Shown: piece after piece, positions 14,304-49,982 of the stretch
Position numbering within the stretch: position 1 is the first letter of the stretch
Layout: every line of letters begins with the position of its first letter
NCBI GenBank assembly: GCA_027486725.1
Contig: JAIXOP010000015.1
Coordinates: 1 to 64,000 of the forward strand
DNA from: Burkholderiales bacterium
GTDB taxonomy: Bacteria; Pseudomonadota; Gammaproteobacteria; Burkholderiales; Burkholderiaceae_A
Direction of reading: 5' to 3'
Length of the DNA: 64,000 nt
Notes under the pieces: generated by a model
Databases searched by the model: none
The model's input: only the letters and a program-made list of their open reading frames with translations
What the model was told of the DNA's origin: nothing
Made by a program: the position numbers and the translations under genes

Positions 14304-14882
14304 ATGTTGATCATCGTCTCTGCCCCCTCGGGCGCCGGAAAAACCAGCCTCGTGCGCGAGCTGCTGCAGTCCCCGCCGCCCGGCATTCCCCTGAGTCTCT
14401 CGGTGAGCTGCACCACGCGCAGCCCGCGCCCTGGCGAAATCGATGGGGTCCACTACCACTTCCTCGACCGCCCAGCCTTTGAGGCCCAGCGACAGCGGGG
14501 CGAGTTCCTCGAGTGGGCCGAGGTCCACGGCAACCTCTATGGCACATCCGCCGTGCGGCTGCGCGAGGCCCTGAATGCGGGCAAGGTGGTGATTCTGGAG
14601 ATCGACTGGCAGGGGGCCGAGCAGGTCCGGCGCCTGGTGCCCGCAGCCGAACGCACCTCGATCTTCATCCTGCCGCCATCGATGGCCGAGCTCGAACGTC
14701 GCCTGCGGGGCCGTGGCCAGGACACCGACGACGTCATCGCCGCGCGCCTCGCTGCCGCGCAGGCCGAGATGTCGCATGCCGGGGAGTTCGATGTGCAACT
14801 CGTCAACGATGACTTTGCCGCCACCCTGGCCGCCCTTCGGGATTGGGTTGGGCGGCATGCGAAGAGCGCCCAGCAGCGGTAA
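14304..14882 (+). CDS. gmk: Guanylate kinase
   Basis: Gmk phosphorylates GMP to GDP and is essential for GTP supply. The 192-residue protein has a P-loop SAPSGAGKTS (6-15), TTRSPRPGEIDGVHYHF, the GMP-binding EFLEWAEVHGNLYGTS and DIDWQGAEQVR-like Walker B (EIDWQGAEQ). It lies between yicC and rpoZ. The cluster gmk-rpoZ-spoT places guanine nucleotide synthesis beside (p)ppGpp metabolism. Confidence 0.96.
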   Translation: MLIIVSAPSGAGKTSLVRELLQSPPPGIPLSLSVSCTTRSPRPGEIDGVHYHFLDRPAFEAQRQRGEFLEWAEVHGNLYGTSAVRLREALNAGKVVILEIDWQGAEQVRRLVPAAERTSIFILPPSMAELERRLRGRGQDTDDVIAARLAAAQAEMSHAGEFDVQLVNDDFAATLAALRDWVGRHAKSAQQR

Positions 14883-14932: not shown

Positions 14933-15136
14933 ATGGCCCGAATCACCGTCGAAGATTGTCTGCAACACATCCCCAACCGGTTTGAGCTTGCGCTGGTGGC
15001 CACCTACCGCGCCCGGCAACTCTCGCAGAAGGCCAACGGCCAGACAGTCGGCAAAGACAAGCCCACCGTGGCAGCGCTGCGCGAGGTCGCCGAGGGCACC
15101 GTCGGCCGCGAGATGCTGCGCAAAGTCCCCCTCTAA
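14933..15136 (+). CDS. rpoZ: RNA polymerase omega subunit
   Basis: The 67-residue protein starts [19 protein letters not shown] and continues [10 protein letters not shown], the core fold of omega, which helps assemble RNA polymerase and forms part of a ppGpp-binding site in E. coli. The ATG at 14933 is preferred over an in-frame TTG 30 bases upstream because family members begin with MARITVED, and GGCAGGACC precedes it. It ends 23 bases before the proposed spoT initiation codon. Confidence 0.95.
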
Positions 15137-15159
15137 ATCCACGCTCTTCGGAGACGGCC

Positions 15160-17370
15160 ATCGGCGCGCAGAGTCCCCTGCAATCCCTGCTCGAGGCCGC
15201 CCACCACCTCGGGCCGGAGGACATCGCGCGGCTCGAAGAGGCCTACCGATTCGCCGAAGCCGCCCACGAGGGACAGAGCCGGCAATCCGGCGAGCCCTAC
15301 ATCACTCACCCCGTCGCGGTGGCCGTGGCCTGCTGCCAGTGGCACCTCGATGCCGAGGCCCTCTGCGCCGCCCTGCTGCACGACACCATCGAAGACTGTG
15401 GCGTCTGCAGCGATCAGATCTCCCAGCTCTTTGGCCCTGCCGTTGCCCGTCTGGTCGATGGCCTCACCAAGCTCGATCAGATCGCCTTTCGCAACCGCGA
15501 AGAGGCCCAGGCCGAGAGTTTTCGCAAAATGCTTCTGGCGATGGCCGACGATGTTCGCGTCATTCTCATCAAGCTCGCCGATCGCCTGCACAACATGCGC
15601 ACCCTGGGCGTGGTCTCGCCCGCCAAGCGCCGGCGCATCGCCCAGGAGACCCTCGAGATCTATGCCCCCATTGCCCACCGCCTTGGGCTCAACGAGGTCT
15701 TTCGCGAGTTTGAAGACCTCTGCTTTGCGGGCCTCTACCCCAACCGCCATCTGGTCCTGAGCAAGGCGCTCAAGGCCTCCCGGGGCAACCGAAAAGAGAT
15801 CGTCACCAAGCTGCTTGCCGCCGTGCGCGAGCAGCTTCCCCGCTTCGATCTGGTGGCCGAGGTCTCGGGCCGAGAAAAAAGCATCTACTCCGTCTACACC
15901 AAGATGCGCGAGAAGGGGCTGTCGTTTGCTGAGGTCCTCGACATCTACGGATTTCGGGTGCTGGTCGACAGCGTGAGCGACTGCTATGTGGCCATGGGTG
16001 CCATCCATGCCCTCTTTAGCCCATCGCCCGGCCGGTTCAAAGACTACATCGCACTGCCCAAGAGCAATGGCTATCAATCCCTGCACACCGTGGTGATTGG
16101 CCCCCAGGGCACGCCACTGGAGTTTCAGATCCGCACCCACGAGATGCACCAGCTCGCGGAGGCCGGTGTGGCGGCCCACTGGCTCTACAAAGAGGCCGAC
16201 GAGAATGTCACGCCCCTGCAGCGCAAGGCCCACGAGTGGATGCAGACCCTCATCTCCACCCAGACCCAGGACCCCAGCGAGTTCTTCGAGCACGTCAAGA
16301 TCGAGCTCTTTCCCGATGTGGTCTATGTGCTGACCCCCAAGGGCGAAATCAAAGAACTGCCGCGGGGCTCCACCCCCGTCGACTTTGCCTACTCCGTGCA
16401 CTCCGATGTGGGCAACCGAATGGTCGGCGCACTCATCAATGGCGAGGCCCGGCCCCTCGACACCGAGCTGCACAGCGGCGACACCGTGCGCATCGAGACC
16501 CGCCCCCATGCCACCCCCCACCCGGGCTGGCTGGGCTTTGTGCGCACGGCGCGCGCCCGCTCCGAGATCCGCCACACCCTCAAGAGCGGCACGCGCGAGC
16601 GCAGCATCGGATTTGGTCAGCGCCTGCTCGAACATGCGGTGCGCGCTTTGGGCGCCGAGGGGCTGCACGATCCTGGCCTGCAGTGGTCGCAGCTCTTCCA
16701 CGAAAATGCGGCAGACAGCCCCGAGGCTCTCTATGAGTCCATCGGCCTGGGCCACACCCTGGCCCACGTGGCCGCACGCCGGCTGGTGCCCCTGGTTTCG
16801 ATGGGCCACGAGCGGCCGCTGTCGGATGCTGCCAAGGCAGCACTCGCGCTCTCCGTGGCGCACCTCACCACCCCCGAGTCCAGCCTCACCATCCATGGCA
16901 ATGAGGGGCCCGCGGTGCAATATGCCCCGTGCTGCTACCCGATCGGGGGCGACAAGGCCGTGGGGAATATGCGGGGCGGCTCCGGGCTCATGATCCATCG
17001 GGCGAGCTGCCCAACTGCGCGCCGCCAGCGCTCCAAAGACGCTGCACGGTGGACCGACATTGCCTGGTCCGACAACCTCATGCGCAGCTTCGAGACACGG
17101 CTGGTGATCGAGGTGGCCGACGGTGCGGGCGTGCTGGCCAAAGTCGCTTCGGCCATCAGCTCGGCCGATGCCAACATCGTCGACCTCACCATTCAGCCCC
17201 GCGGGACCGGCTTTGCGTTCCTTCAGGTGGCGGTGGAGGTCCGAGACCGCAAGCACCTGGCCGACGTGCTTCGGCAAGTGCGGGCCAGCGCGGTGGTGAG
17301 CAAGGCCGTGCGCCTTACTCGCTCGACTGTCCCCCCACCGTCATCGAGCCAACCAAGACCGAGCCTGTAG
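15160..17370 (+). CDS. spoT: Bifunctional (p)ppGpp synthase/hydrolase, with a likely non-canonical start
   Basis: The product makes and degrades (p)ppGpp. From the proposed ATC start (736 residues) it has an HD hydrolase domain with metal-binding His50 (GEPYITHP), His74-Asp75 (LLHDTIED) and LADRLHNMRTL, a synthetase domain (SIYSVYTKMREKG, DIYGFRV, FKDYIALPKSNGYQSLH, LEFQIRT), a TGS domain and a C-terminal ACT domain. No ATG, GTG or TTG occurs between the in-frame stop at 14983 and GTG 15319, and that GTG would delete His50. GGAG at 15150-15153 followed six bases later by ATC (15160) is the best candidate start; a CTG at 15178 or a -1 shift from rpoZ are alternatives. Its 3' end overlaps pmbA by 56 bases on opposite strands. 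Confidence 0.9.
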   Translation: MGAQSPLQSLLEAAHHLGPEDIARLEEAYRFAEAAHEGQSRQSGEPYITHPVAVAVACCQWHLDAEALCAALLHDTIEDCGVCSDQISQLFGPAVARLVDGLTKLDQIAFRNREEAQAESFRKMLLAMADDVRVILIKLADRLHNMRTLGVVSPAKRRRIAQETLEIYAPIAHRLGLNEVFREFEDLCFAGLYPNRHLVLSKALKASRGNRKEIVTKLLAAVREQLPRFDLVAEVSGREKSIYSVYTKMREKGLSFAEVLDIYGFRVLVDSVSDCYVAMGAIHALFSPSPGRFKDYIALPKSNGYQSLHTVVIGPQGTPLEFQIRTHEMHQLAEAGVAAHWLYKEADENVTPLQRKAHEWMQTLISTQTQDPSEFFEHVKIELFPDVVYVLTPKGEIKELPRGSTPVDFAYSVHSDVGNRMVGALINGEARPLDTELHSGDTVRIETRPHATPHPGWLGFVRTARARSEIRHTLKSGTRERSIGFGQRLLEHAVRALGAEGLHDPGLQWSQLFHENAADSPEALYESIGLGHTLAHVAARRLVPLVSMGHERPLSDAAKAALALSVAHLTTPESSLTIHGNEGPAVQYAPCCYPIGGDKAVGNMRGGSGLMIHRASCPTARRQRSKDAARWTDIAWSDNLMRSFETRLVIEVADGAGVLAKVASAISSADANIVDLTIQPRGTGFAFLQVAVEVRDRKHLADVLRQVRASAVVSKAVRLTRSTVPPPSSSQPRPSL

Positions 17371-18689: not shown

Positions 18690-19295
18690 ATGAGCACACC
18701 ATCCATCGCCCGAATAGGGCTTGTTTCTGTCAGTGATCGGGCCAGTGCGGGGGTCTACCCCGATGAGGGGCTGCCCAGCCTGCGCGCCTGGCTGGAGCGC
18801 GCCATCTCCAGCCCCATCGAGTTCGTCGAGCGGCTCATCCCCGACGAGCAGCCCCAGATCGAGGCCTGCCTTCGGGCGCTGGTCGATGACGAGGGCTGCT
18901 GCCTGGTGCTGACCACCGGGGGCACGGGCCCCGCCCTGCGCGATGTCACCCCCGAGGCCACCGTGGCGGTGGGGCACAAGGAAATGCCAGGCTTTGGCGA
19001 ACAGATGCGGCAGATCTCGCTGCACTTCGTGCCCACGGCCATCCTCAGCCGTCAGACCGCCGTCATTCGCGGCCAGGCCCTGATCATCAATCTTCCCGGC
19101 CGCCCCAAGAGCATTGCCCAGACCCTCGAGGGACTGAAGGATTCCGACGGCAAGGTCATCGTCTCGGGCATTTTTGCCGCCGTGCCCTACTGCGTGGACT
19201 TGATCGGTGGGCCCTTCATCGTGACCCGGCCCGAGGTCTGCGCGGCATTTCGTCCCCCGGGGGCCCAGGCCGCGTCGACCACCCGTTCCGGGTAG
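18690..19295 (+). CDS. mog: Molybdopterin adenylyltransferase
   Basis: MogA adenylylates molybdopterin before molybdate insertion, making the cofactor that formate dehydrogenase at the right end of the window needs. The 201-residue protein has IGLVSVSDRASAGVY, the nucleotide-binding LTTGGTGPALRDVTPEA, and the C-terminal INLPGRPKSI. Start ATG 18690 (MSTPSIARIG) is 16 bases from the divergent pmbA start; an in-frame ATG at 18672 overlapping it is the alternative. The last 109 bases overlap the 3' end of relA on the opposite strand. Confidence 0.94.
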   Translation: MSTPSIARIGLVSVSDRASAGVYPDEGLPSLRAWLERAISSPIEFVERLIPDEQPQIEACLRALVDDEGCCLVLTTGGTGPALRDVTPEATVAVGHKEMPGFGEQMRQISLHFVPTAILSRQTAVIRGQALIINLPGRPKSIAQTLEGLKDSDGKVIVSGIFAAVPYCVDLIGGPFIVTRPEVCAAFRPPGAQAASTTRSG

Positions 19296-20929
19296 CGGGC
19301 CACGAGGCGGGCGTATTCCGGGCAGCCCAGCCGATGGATCGAGACCCCACGACTGCGGGTCACAAACCCACCAATGGAGTCCTCGGCCGAAGGGCCACAG
19401 CAGGCCGCAAACACGGTGAGCATTCGATCGAGGCCCACCACCAGCACCGGCCGACGCTCGGCCGAGCCGATGGATCCAGTAGATCCTGTAGATCCGGTGG
19501 ATCCGGTGGATCTTGCTGCCGGAGCTGGCTCGGCTGCTCGCGCTGCATCGGCGGGCGGAGCCGGGTGGCCAGCCTCGGCAGGCTGCGCTGCTGCGCTGGC
19601 CTCGGCGGCCTGATCCTGGGCATTGAACCAGGCCCGCACCTTGGCGCGCGCCCGAGCCGTGGCGAGCATGCCAGAGCCCGCAGAGAGCCAATCGCGGCTG
19701 GGGCCACCGGCCTTCACCGACAAGACCTCCACCGTCTGGCCCGAACGCAAGGGCCGGTTCAGGGGCCAGATCTGGCCATCGACCTTGGCCCCTCGACAGC
19801 GGTGGCCCAGGTCGGTGTGCACGCGGTAGGCGAAATCGAGCGGTGTGGCCCCGGTGGGCAGTTCGATGATTTTGGCCTGCGGGGTAAGAATGTAGATCAG
19901 CGAGCCGGACGTGACGCTGCGGGCTGTGCTGCCCCCGGACTCCTTGTATTTCCAATGCGCTGCCACGCCGAACTCAGCCTGAAGGTGCATGGCCTGCGTG
20001 CGGATCTGCACCTCGAAGGGCCGCGCCTCGGGGCCCAGCAGCACCATGTGCAGGGACTGATATCCATTGGGCTTGGGCCGAGCGATGTAGTCGTCGAACT
20101 CGCCGGCCACCGGCTCGAAGTGCGCGCGCAGCTCGGCCAGCACCCGATAGCAGGCATCGACATCGGCCACGATCACACGAAAGGCGCGCAGGTCCATCAG
20201 CCGATCGAAGGCCAGGCCCTTCTGGCGCATCTTGTTGTAGATGCTGTAGAGGTGCTTGGGCCGTCCGTAGACCTCGAGCGCTAGGCCCGTGGGCAGCAGC
20301 AGTTCTTGCAGCCGTCGCTGCATGGCCTCGATAAAGCCCTCGCGCTCGCTGCGCGTCTCATCAAGCCAATGGGCCACCTGCTTGTAGAGGGCGGGCTCGC
20401 AGAGCCGGAAGGCCAGATCCTCGAGGGGCCACTTCATCTGCCAGACCCCAAGCCGGGCCGCCAAGGGGCCATGCACCTGAAAGGCCAGCCGGCCCAGCCA
20501 GGCAAAGTCGGAGGAATCGGCCAGCCCCTGGCGAATGCATTCCACCGCCGCCTGCTGGCGCGCCTGATGCATGGCCAGAGCCATCAGGACCACGCGCAGG
20601 TCCTCCGAGAGGGCGACGATCATGCGACGCAGCGCCTCGTGCTGGCCCGCATCGCTGGGGGCACGGCGCATATAAGGCTCGAGCCGCAGCAGCAGGCTCA
20701 TGAGCCGTGCCTGCGGCGCTCCCCAACGCTGGGCAAGAGACTCTTGCGCGGGCGGCGCCAGCGCTACGCCCATCGCGTCGGCCGCCGCATGCAGGCGGAT
20801 GACCTCGGTCAGGGCCGCCGTGCAGACCGGCTCCAGACCCATGACCCCCAGCCAGTGCTGGGCGTCGCGGATCAGGTCCTCTGCCGGGAAATCAGGCAGC
20901 GTCTTCGCGGGCTGCGCGCTTTCGCTCAT
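19187..20929 (-). CDS. relA: GTP pyrophosphokinase RelA, C-terminally shortened
   Basis: RelA makes (p)ppGpp on stalled ribosomes. In this 580-residue protein the hydrolase-like domain has lost the HDxxED residues, as in monofunctional RelA. The synthetase retains Asp246 (LMDLRAFRV), [18 protein letters not shown] and Glu306 (FEVQIRT). TGS spans about 342-405. In place of a full helical domain there is an Ala/Pro-rich stretch and a (Ser-Thr-Gly)n repeat (474-487). The zinc-finger domain remains ([10 protein letters not shown], Cys510-Cys511, His532, Cys536), but the RRM/ACT domain is absent. E. coli RelA has 744 residues. The tail overlaps mog; the start overlaps typA by 38 bases. Confidence 0.93.
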
Positions 20930-22712
20930 GCTCCACCAGATAACGCTTGCGCAGGCGGATGCTCTTGGGCGTGATCTCCACCAGCTCGTCGTCGGCAATG
21001 AATTCCACGGCCTTCTCCAGGGTGAGCTGGATCGGCGGGGTCAGGTCGATGTGCTCATCCTTGCCCGATGCGCGGACGTTGGTGAGTTTCTTCTCCTTGA
21101 CCGGGTTGACCACGAGGTCGTTGTCGCGGCTGTGGATGCCAATGATCATGCCCTCGTAGAGCACATCGCCCGGCGAGACAAACATGCGGCCGCGCTCCTG
21201 AAGCTTCCAGAGCGCATAGGCCACGGCCTGTCCATCGTCCTGCGAGATCAGCACCCCATTTCGGCGCTCAGCCAGCTCGCCCTTGTAGGGGCCATAGGCG
21301 TCGAACACATGGCTCATGAGGCCCGTGCCGCGGGTGAGGGTCAGGAACTCGCCCTGAAAGCCGATCAGGCCCCGGGCAGGAATGCGGTACTCCAGGCGGA
21401 CCCGGCCATTCTCATCGGGAACCATGTCGAGCAGATCGCCCTTGCGCAGCCCGAGGTTCTCCATCACGGGGCCCTGGTGCTCCTGCTCCACATCCACCGT
21501 GAGCATCTCGTAGGGCTCGGTGCGCTCACCCGCCTCGTCGCGCTTGAAGACCACGCGGGGGCGGGACACAGCCAGCTCGTAGCCCTCGCGGCGCATGTTC
21601 TCGAGCAGGATGGTCAGGTGCAGCTCCCCGCGTCCATTGACGATGAAGGTGTCGGTGTCGTCGCCAAACTCCACGCGCAGCGCCACATTGCTCTTCAACT
21701 CGCGCTCCAGCCGCTCGCGGATCTGGCGCGAGGTCACAAACTTGCCCTCACGGCCAGCCAGGGGCGAGTTGTTGACAATGAAGTTCATCGAGAGCGTCGG
21801 CTCATCGACGGTGAGCATTTCGAAGGGCTCCACGGCTGCAGGATCGCAGACGGTGGTGCCGATGTTGAGCTCTTCGATGCCATTGATCAGCACAATGTCG
21901 CCCGCCTCGGCCTCGGCAACGATCTCGCGCTCAAGGCCCTTGAACTTGAGCACCTGATTGATCTTGGCGCGCTTGGGGCTGCCGCTGGGGCCATCCTGAA
22001 TCACGACATCCATATTGGGCTTCAGGCGGCCCTGGGCCACACGGCCAATGCCGATCTTGCCCACATAGCTGGAGTAGTCGAGCGAGCAGATCTGCAGCCG
22101 CAGGGGCGCATCGGGATCGTCGTTGCGCACCGGCACATACTTCAGGATGGCATCAAAGAGCGGCCGCATGTTCTCGCTCGCCTCGCTTGGGTTGAGCGTG
22201 GCAAAGCCCTGCAGGGCCGAGGCATAGACCACCGGGAAATCGAGCTGCTCCTCGGTGGCACCCAGCTTGTCGAAGAGATCGAAGGTCTGGTTGATGACCC
22301 AGTCGGGACGAGCACCCGGGCGGTCGATCTTGTTGACCACAACGATCGGCTTGAGGCCCTGGGCGAGCGCCTTGCGCGTCACGAATCGGGTCTGGGGCAT
22401 GGGGCCTTCCACAGCATCGACCAGCAGCAGCACGCTGTCGACCATCGAGAGCACACGCTCGACCTCGCCACCAAAGTCGGCGTGGCCCGGGGTGTCGACG
22501 ATATTGATGTGGGTGCCCTCGTACTCCACTGCGCAGTTCTTGGCAAGGATGGTGATGCCGCGCTCTTTCTCCAGGTCGTTGGAGTCCATGACGCGCTCGG
22601 CCACAGCCTGGTTGGAGCGGAAGGTGCCGGCCTGCTGGAGCAGCTTGTCGACGAGGGTGGTCTTGCCGTGGTCAACGTGGGCAATGATGGCGATGTTGCG
22701 CAGTTGGCGCAT
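20892..22712 (-). CDS. typA: Translational GTPase TypA/BipA
   Basis: TypA is a ribosome-associated GTPase involved in ribosome assembly and stress adaptation. The 606-residue protein starts [20 protein letters not shown] (P-loop at 11-18), with [16 protein letters not shown] (G3), [10 protein letters not shown] (G4), EF-G-like domains and the TypA C-terminus with [15 protein letters not shown]. The frame is open upstream into truB, but family members begin at the chosen ATG. Its start lies within the truB 3' end (41 bases) and its end within relA, suggesting coupling. Confidence 0.97.

Positions 22713-47329: not shown

Positions 47330-49982
<2,653 letters not shown>

Follow-up and report, generated by a model that had tools for sequence, protein, structure and literature searches.

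The infC gene, which encodes IF3, starts at AUU or AUC and is autoregulated by IF3, and E. coli pcnB has an AUU start. AUC start codons are expected to be inefficient, and AUA is a still rarer start codon. Excerpts of PMC5472188 state that very few bacterial non-NTG starts have been characterised by experiment and that start prediction assumes ATG, GTG and TTG; they give ATT as the infC start in E. coli and ATC in Streptomyces, and describe a GTC start, repressed by IF3, in Streptomyces sigR. The spoT gene of E. coli has an annotated TTG start, a codon also named in an excerpt of PMC7593582.

The spoT gene described here lies in a 64 kb window at the start of contig C11, part of an 18-contig genome of 1.66 Mb (83.7% complete) from an uncultured bacterium. 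Comparison of the window ORFs with the loci of relatives shows the usual arrangement gmk (14304–14882), rpoZ, spoT. Like infC, this spoT has an AUH codon instead of NTG at the homologous start, together with a Shine-Dalgarno (SD) match; the near-cognate start is genus-wide in infC, whereas in spoT it occurs in one genome only. The AUH start is also shared with pcnB, an unrelated gene. E. coli spoT is the same gene in the same rpoZ–spoT order, and its start, 18 nt beyond the end of rpoZ, is weak; its UUG is nonetheless a standard start, and AUC is not. Streptomyces sigR likewise encodes a stress regulator whose abundance is important and combines a non-NTG start with a Shine-Dalgarno sequence, but it uses GTC rather than ATC, and its start is conserved across Streptomyces and experimentally shown (PMC5472188, in excerpt). 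The features of the locus are as follows.

14933–15136, + strand: rpoZ (RNA polymerase omega), ATG to TAA; tblastn with rpoZ matched 107 of 109 spoT loci.
15116–15318, + strand: stretch free of ATG, GTG and TTG in all frames, the longest such gap in the window.
15127–15131, + strand: CCCCC run at the rpoZ end, seen in the sequence; candidate slip site for a frameshift fusion.
15150–15153, + strand: GGAG, Shine-Dalgarno-like, six bases 5′ of ATC 15160; −6.6 kcal/mol with a canonical anti-SD assumed.
15160–15162, + strand: ATC, the most likely spoT start codon, from its position in relatives, its SD match and helix 1 of a predicted model.
15160–17370, + strand: spoT, 736 aa when read from the ATC, with HD hydrolase, RelA_SpoT synthetase, TGS and ACT domains (Pfam, NCBIfam).
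15289–15312, + strand: GEPYITHP, putative hydrolase-site segment, with its His codon at 15307–15309 (alignments; PMC9974481, in excerpt).
15319–15321, + strand: GTG, first standard start in the spoT frame, without an SD match (+1.2 kcal/mol).
19187–20998, − strand: relA-type synthetase with a partial HD region (ORF list, profile matches).

After a TGA at 14983–14985, spoT has an open frame of 795 codons including the stop (14986–17370), in which the first ATG, GTG or TTG is GTG 15319, residue 112. The earlier note had reported just this, an open frame from 14986 with no standard start before GTG 15319, and its description of a GGAG followed six bases later by ATC is equally accurate (15150–15153, 15160–15162). 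The missing standard start of spoT is real in the sequence of this assembly. None of ATG, GTG and TTG occurs on the + strand, whatever the frame, from ATG 15113 (in the rpoZ frame and inside rpoZ) to GTG 15319, and neither strand of the window has a longer gap of this kind than these 206 nt. In-frame absence of NTG alone is unremarkable, because a run of 61 codons without one has a chance of ∼1.4% at spoT's own NTG frequency (46 of 683) and a 70-codon NTG-free run occurs further along the gene. The gap is remarkable by its place: among 112 distinct spoT loci, the one in the window is alone in lacking a standard start 5′ of the metal-ligand His, and the other 111 have one.

GTG 15319 lies within the conserved part of the protein. 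The domains HD, RelA_SpoT, TGS and ACT follow in order (PF13328, PF04607, PF02824 and PF13291/PF01842, all above cut-offs); TIGR00691 matches with 704.4 bits against a cut-off of 499.2, and the best NCBIfam model is the E. coli-type NF008303, at 755.9 under its cut-off of 947. The HD_4 match starts at 15241, 5′ of GTG 15319, and, in open-frame numbering, the three best NCBIfam RelA/SpoT models begin at 72, 81 and 86, ahead of residue 112. In ten aligned sequences the G, P, Y, H and P of GEPYITHP are invariant, as are the hydrolase residues Y47, H50, H74, D75, E78 and D79; the Y and H of GEPYITHP lie 5′ of GTG 15319, and the HD and ED lie 3′ of it. Excerpts of a structural study of Acinetobacter SpoT indicate that Y51 is required for hydrolysis and that an H54A/H78A enzyme is unable to bind Mn2+ (PMC9974481); by motif and spacing, we read Y51 and H54 as the probable counterparts of the Y and H of GEPYITHP. 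A start at GTG 15319 would, as the earlier note pointed out, remove GEPYITHP; alignments and structure together support the view that this loss would kill the SpoT hydrolase. No standard start in the frame can yield the conserved protein.

An HD_4 search of the 83.7% complete genome gave a full-length match in SpoT only; RelA, 2 kb away on the opposite strand, has a partial one. The relA-type gene also contains a 9-base tandem repeat (4.4 copies, 19473–19512), with Ser-Thr-Gly repeats after the TGS domain. With a relA-type synthetase present, a working SpoT hydrolase would, by analogy with E. coli, be necessary: an excerpt of PMC4154780 states that loss of spoT with active relA is generally considered lethal in E. 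coli, yet is suppressible. It is highly improbable that full-length SpoT is not made, either through a hydrolase-dead product starting at GTG 15319 or through ongoing loss of spoT. GTG 15319 is indeed the first standard start, but it lacks an SD match, protein-level conservation extends over much of the region 5′ of it, the entire frame is intact, relA is present, and the search of this 83.7% complete genome gave no full-length HD_4 domain besides that of SpoT.

We compared starts in 118 spoT loci, drawn from family genomes (24 of 26 matched), from genome contigs (nine) and otherwise from the order, in which 153 of 160 genomes matched and 90 were read at the start (five already counted as own or family, plus 25 and 60). 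The final pattern missed six loci, three of them cut before the start (L013, L020, L026) and three located earlier with standard starts (L063, L070, L074); removal of three duplicates left 112 distinct spoT loci read to the start. Within the genus, nine of the ten other genomes have a standard start (ATG in seven, GTG in one, TTG in one) and the tenth is cut off at the start. In the comparison of this start among close relatives, which the earlier note had proposed, none of the nine readable genus mates shares the ATC, and the near-cognate codon is not kept in close relatives.

Weak starts are a recurrent feature of spoT. If the start is taken, by a crude rule, as the standard codon that comes first after the stop of rpoZ, it is ATG in 70, GTG in 22 and TTG in 14 of 106 relatives. 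The adjacent rpoZ begins with ATG in 103 of 107 loci, so that weak starts are frequent in spoT and rare in rpoZ. Among 20 family relatives, spoT has a GTG or TTG start in 12, and the start falls 0–23 nt after the rpoZ stop in 16 of 20, the ATC of the window standing at 23 nt. Such weak, close-spaced starts would suit translational coupling to rpoZ with low yield. The gmk gene, matched at 91 loci, was set aside as a second comparison of start codons because extrapolation hardly allowed its start to be placed (48 loci assigned, 45 of these as 'other'). Tightly spaced, mostly weak spoT starts characterise two sister genera as well: in one (L014–L017) GTG directly follows the rpoZ TAA in all four readable genes, and in another (L018–L025) seven of seven spoT genes (TTG 5, GTG 1, ATG 1) start eight bases after the assigned rpoZ stop. 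A plasmid search matched only distant spoT copies, which gave no start information, and no report of a non-NTG spoT start stood among the top-listed matches of open-access literature searches, read by title and abstract opening.

We consider that spoT is probably translated from AUC at 15160, the start favoured in the earlier note. This codon lies 23 nt after the rpoZ stop and 49 codons before the metal-ligand His; the standard codon of other loci is most often 47 codons before that His (35 of 109 loci), as is the annotated TTG of E. coli. Its SD energy is −6.6 kcal/mol, compared with a median of −3.6 for the first starts of 106 relatives and −2.1 for random positions. These energies were computed against a canonical anti-SD, assumed because a search of the assembly found no 16S. 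A predicted model of residues 1–368 counted from ATC (mean pLDDT 80.6) places helix 1 at residues 6–13 and helix 2 at 19–35, with residues 1–3 below 50. In this model, starts 3′ of ATC 15160 are disfavoured because they would cut into helix 1, whereas ATC would leave a short tail. The gene thus has a near-cognate codon at the homologous position with an SD match, and the SD energy, the position, the helix from residue 6 and the near-cognate infC (see below) all support ATC 15160 as the best start.

Several observations weigh against this reading. The codon is not conserved in the genus, where the nearest relative has only 70% residue identity, and it comes from a single metagenome-type assembly, 83.7% complete. 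SpoT is probably needed, whereas AUC initiation is expected to be inefficient. Stronger SD-like matches also lie downstream: in a scan of 61 in-frame positions, 15223–15232 score −8.9 to −9.5 kcal/mol, better than the group that includes ATC 15160. A different near-cognate start at CTG 15178, CTG 15187 or ATC 15223 is nevertheless rather improbable. All three are in frame and would retain GEPYITHP, and ATC 15223 has a GGAGG just 5′ (−8.9 kcal/mol), but the spacing there is two bases only and, on the predicted model, this start would take away all of helix 1 and the first part of helix 2. The two CTG codons have weak SD matches (−2.4 each) and their distances to the His are 43 and 40 codons. 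In none of 106 relatives does the first start that follows rpoZ come nearer to the His than 45 codons, on a count of codons at a distance of 35 or more.

Ribosomes would reach AUC 15160 either on completing rpoZ, whose stop is 23 nt upstream, or through recruitment to the GGAG at 15150–15153. The initiator tRNA (anticodon CAU) would be placed on the AUC with a third-position mismatch, and the product would be a 736-residue SpoT with formyl-Met first. Initiation at this codon should be weak and IF3-sensitive, like that of infC.

The infC genes of the same organism and of its genus are, by analogy, a precedent for near-cognate initiation in this organism. The gene was located in 10 of 11 genomes. 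In the window's own genome (L041; G000 contig C12, 16056–16559, − strand) the open frame has no standard start ahead of IATDKGHRVNGEI, and the homologous start position reads ATA, with GGAGG eight bases 5′ of it. The other infC genes of the genus have ATC at this codon in nine of nine, in contrast to the ATA of the window's genome; in eight of the nine there is no standard start in the open frame and ATA lies just 5′ of the ATC, so that either codon could serve as the start, and the ninth (L038) has TTG two codons before ATC. The infC precedent cited in the earlier note extends to the window's genome (ATA) and to the genus (ATC in nine of nine).

Two candidate changes in the initiation machinery were rejected. 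An altered initiator tRNA was one: among the 30 of 37 tRNA matches covered as loci, three have a CAT anticodon, and one of these, L154, with three G-C pairs in the anticodon stem, is an ordinary initiator-type tRNA. An altered IF3 was the other: five of its residues depart from a residue common to all nine relatives compared, and all five changes are mild. Judged by sequence, the initiator-type tRNA and IF3 look ordinary.

The earlier note had also raised a −1 ribosomal slip at the C-run ending rpoZ (CCCCC, 15127–15131), which would give an omega–SpoT fusion. The spoT frame is in the −1 frame of rpoZ and open across the junction, and −1 is the commonest relation of the two genes (44 of 107 loci). 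The relation varies, however, among these 107 loci, the window's included (−1 in 44, +1 in 34, 0 in 29), which argues against the fusion, and the sequence GTC CCC CTC TAA has a run of only five C and no X-XXY-YYZ heptamer. In the family, a standard start follows rpoZ in each of the 20 readable relatives, and shuffled sequences fold as well as the junction (z 0.19 and 1.06). The fusion is not supported, and we regard it as very unlikely.

The main rival to AUC 15160 is a wrong consensus base or a minority strain variant, the true gene having ATG, GTG or TTG at or near 15160, because the codon occurs in no relative that was read and the species is represented by a single sequence. An incomplete, multi-contig assembly leaves room for such an error; standard starts in 111 of 112 distinct loci, including the nine readable genus mates, speak for it, and a single substitution would turn ATC, with its good SD and fitting position, into a standard start. 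Against it, no ATG, GTG or TTG occurs in any frame from the last ATG of rpoZ to GTG 15319, so that a frame-shifting indel there would not bring an existing start into frame. A random substitution landing on a start codon is a priori rare, and contig C11 is long, with matches up to base 485365. We also scanned 30 other ORFs of the window with NCBIfam, from 49 long ORFs listed including spoT, as a control on sequence quality. Twenty-two of the 30 had a match, and in all 22 the best family begins at or after the first standard start, so the anomaly of spoT is absent from each of them; in an ntrC-like ORF one lower-ranked family starts one residue before the first standard start. The eight ORFs without an NCBIfam match also lacked a Pfam match, and of two further window ORFs one matched. 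Taken together, we judge an error or variant unlikely, though it deserves more weight than the other alternatives to AUC 15160.

Elsewhere in the window, 47580–49505 and 49509–49946 on the − strand are two long open stretches in one frame with a single stop between them, and in the upstream stretch the first standard start comes only at residue 143 of 146. Neither has a Pfam or NCBIfam match, and both may be non-coding.

For spoT itself, we infer AUC use, coupling to rpoZ, low output and dependence on IF3. That SpoT is kept low or tied to IF3 is plausible by analogy with sigR (PMC5472188, in excerpt); IF3 control of spoT is a reasoned guess. We advance more tentatively, and as a conjecture that is on balance doubtful, that the SpoT hydrolase is wired to IF3: through the AUC start, its synthesis would go up as IF3 activity falls and down as it rises, so that (p)ppGpp turnover would follow the state of translation initiation, alongside the AUA-start infC.

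The gene of the enzyme that destroys the alarm signal ppGpp most likely begins at AUC, much as infC does. If this is true, spoT joins infC, pcnB and sigR, in a genome whose infC also has a near-cognate start, and a connection of ppGpp turnover with IF3 can be put to a direct test.
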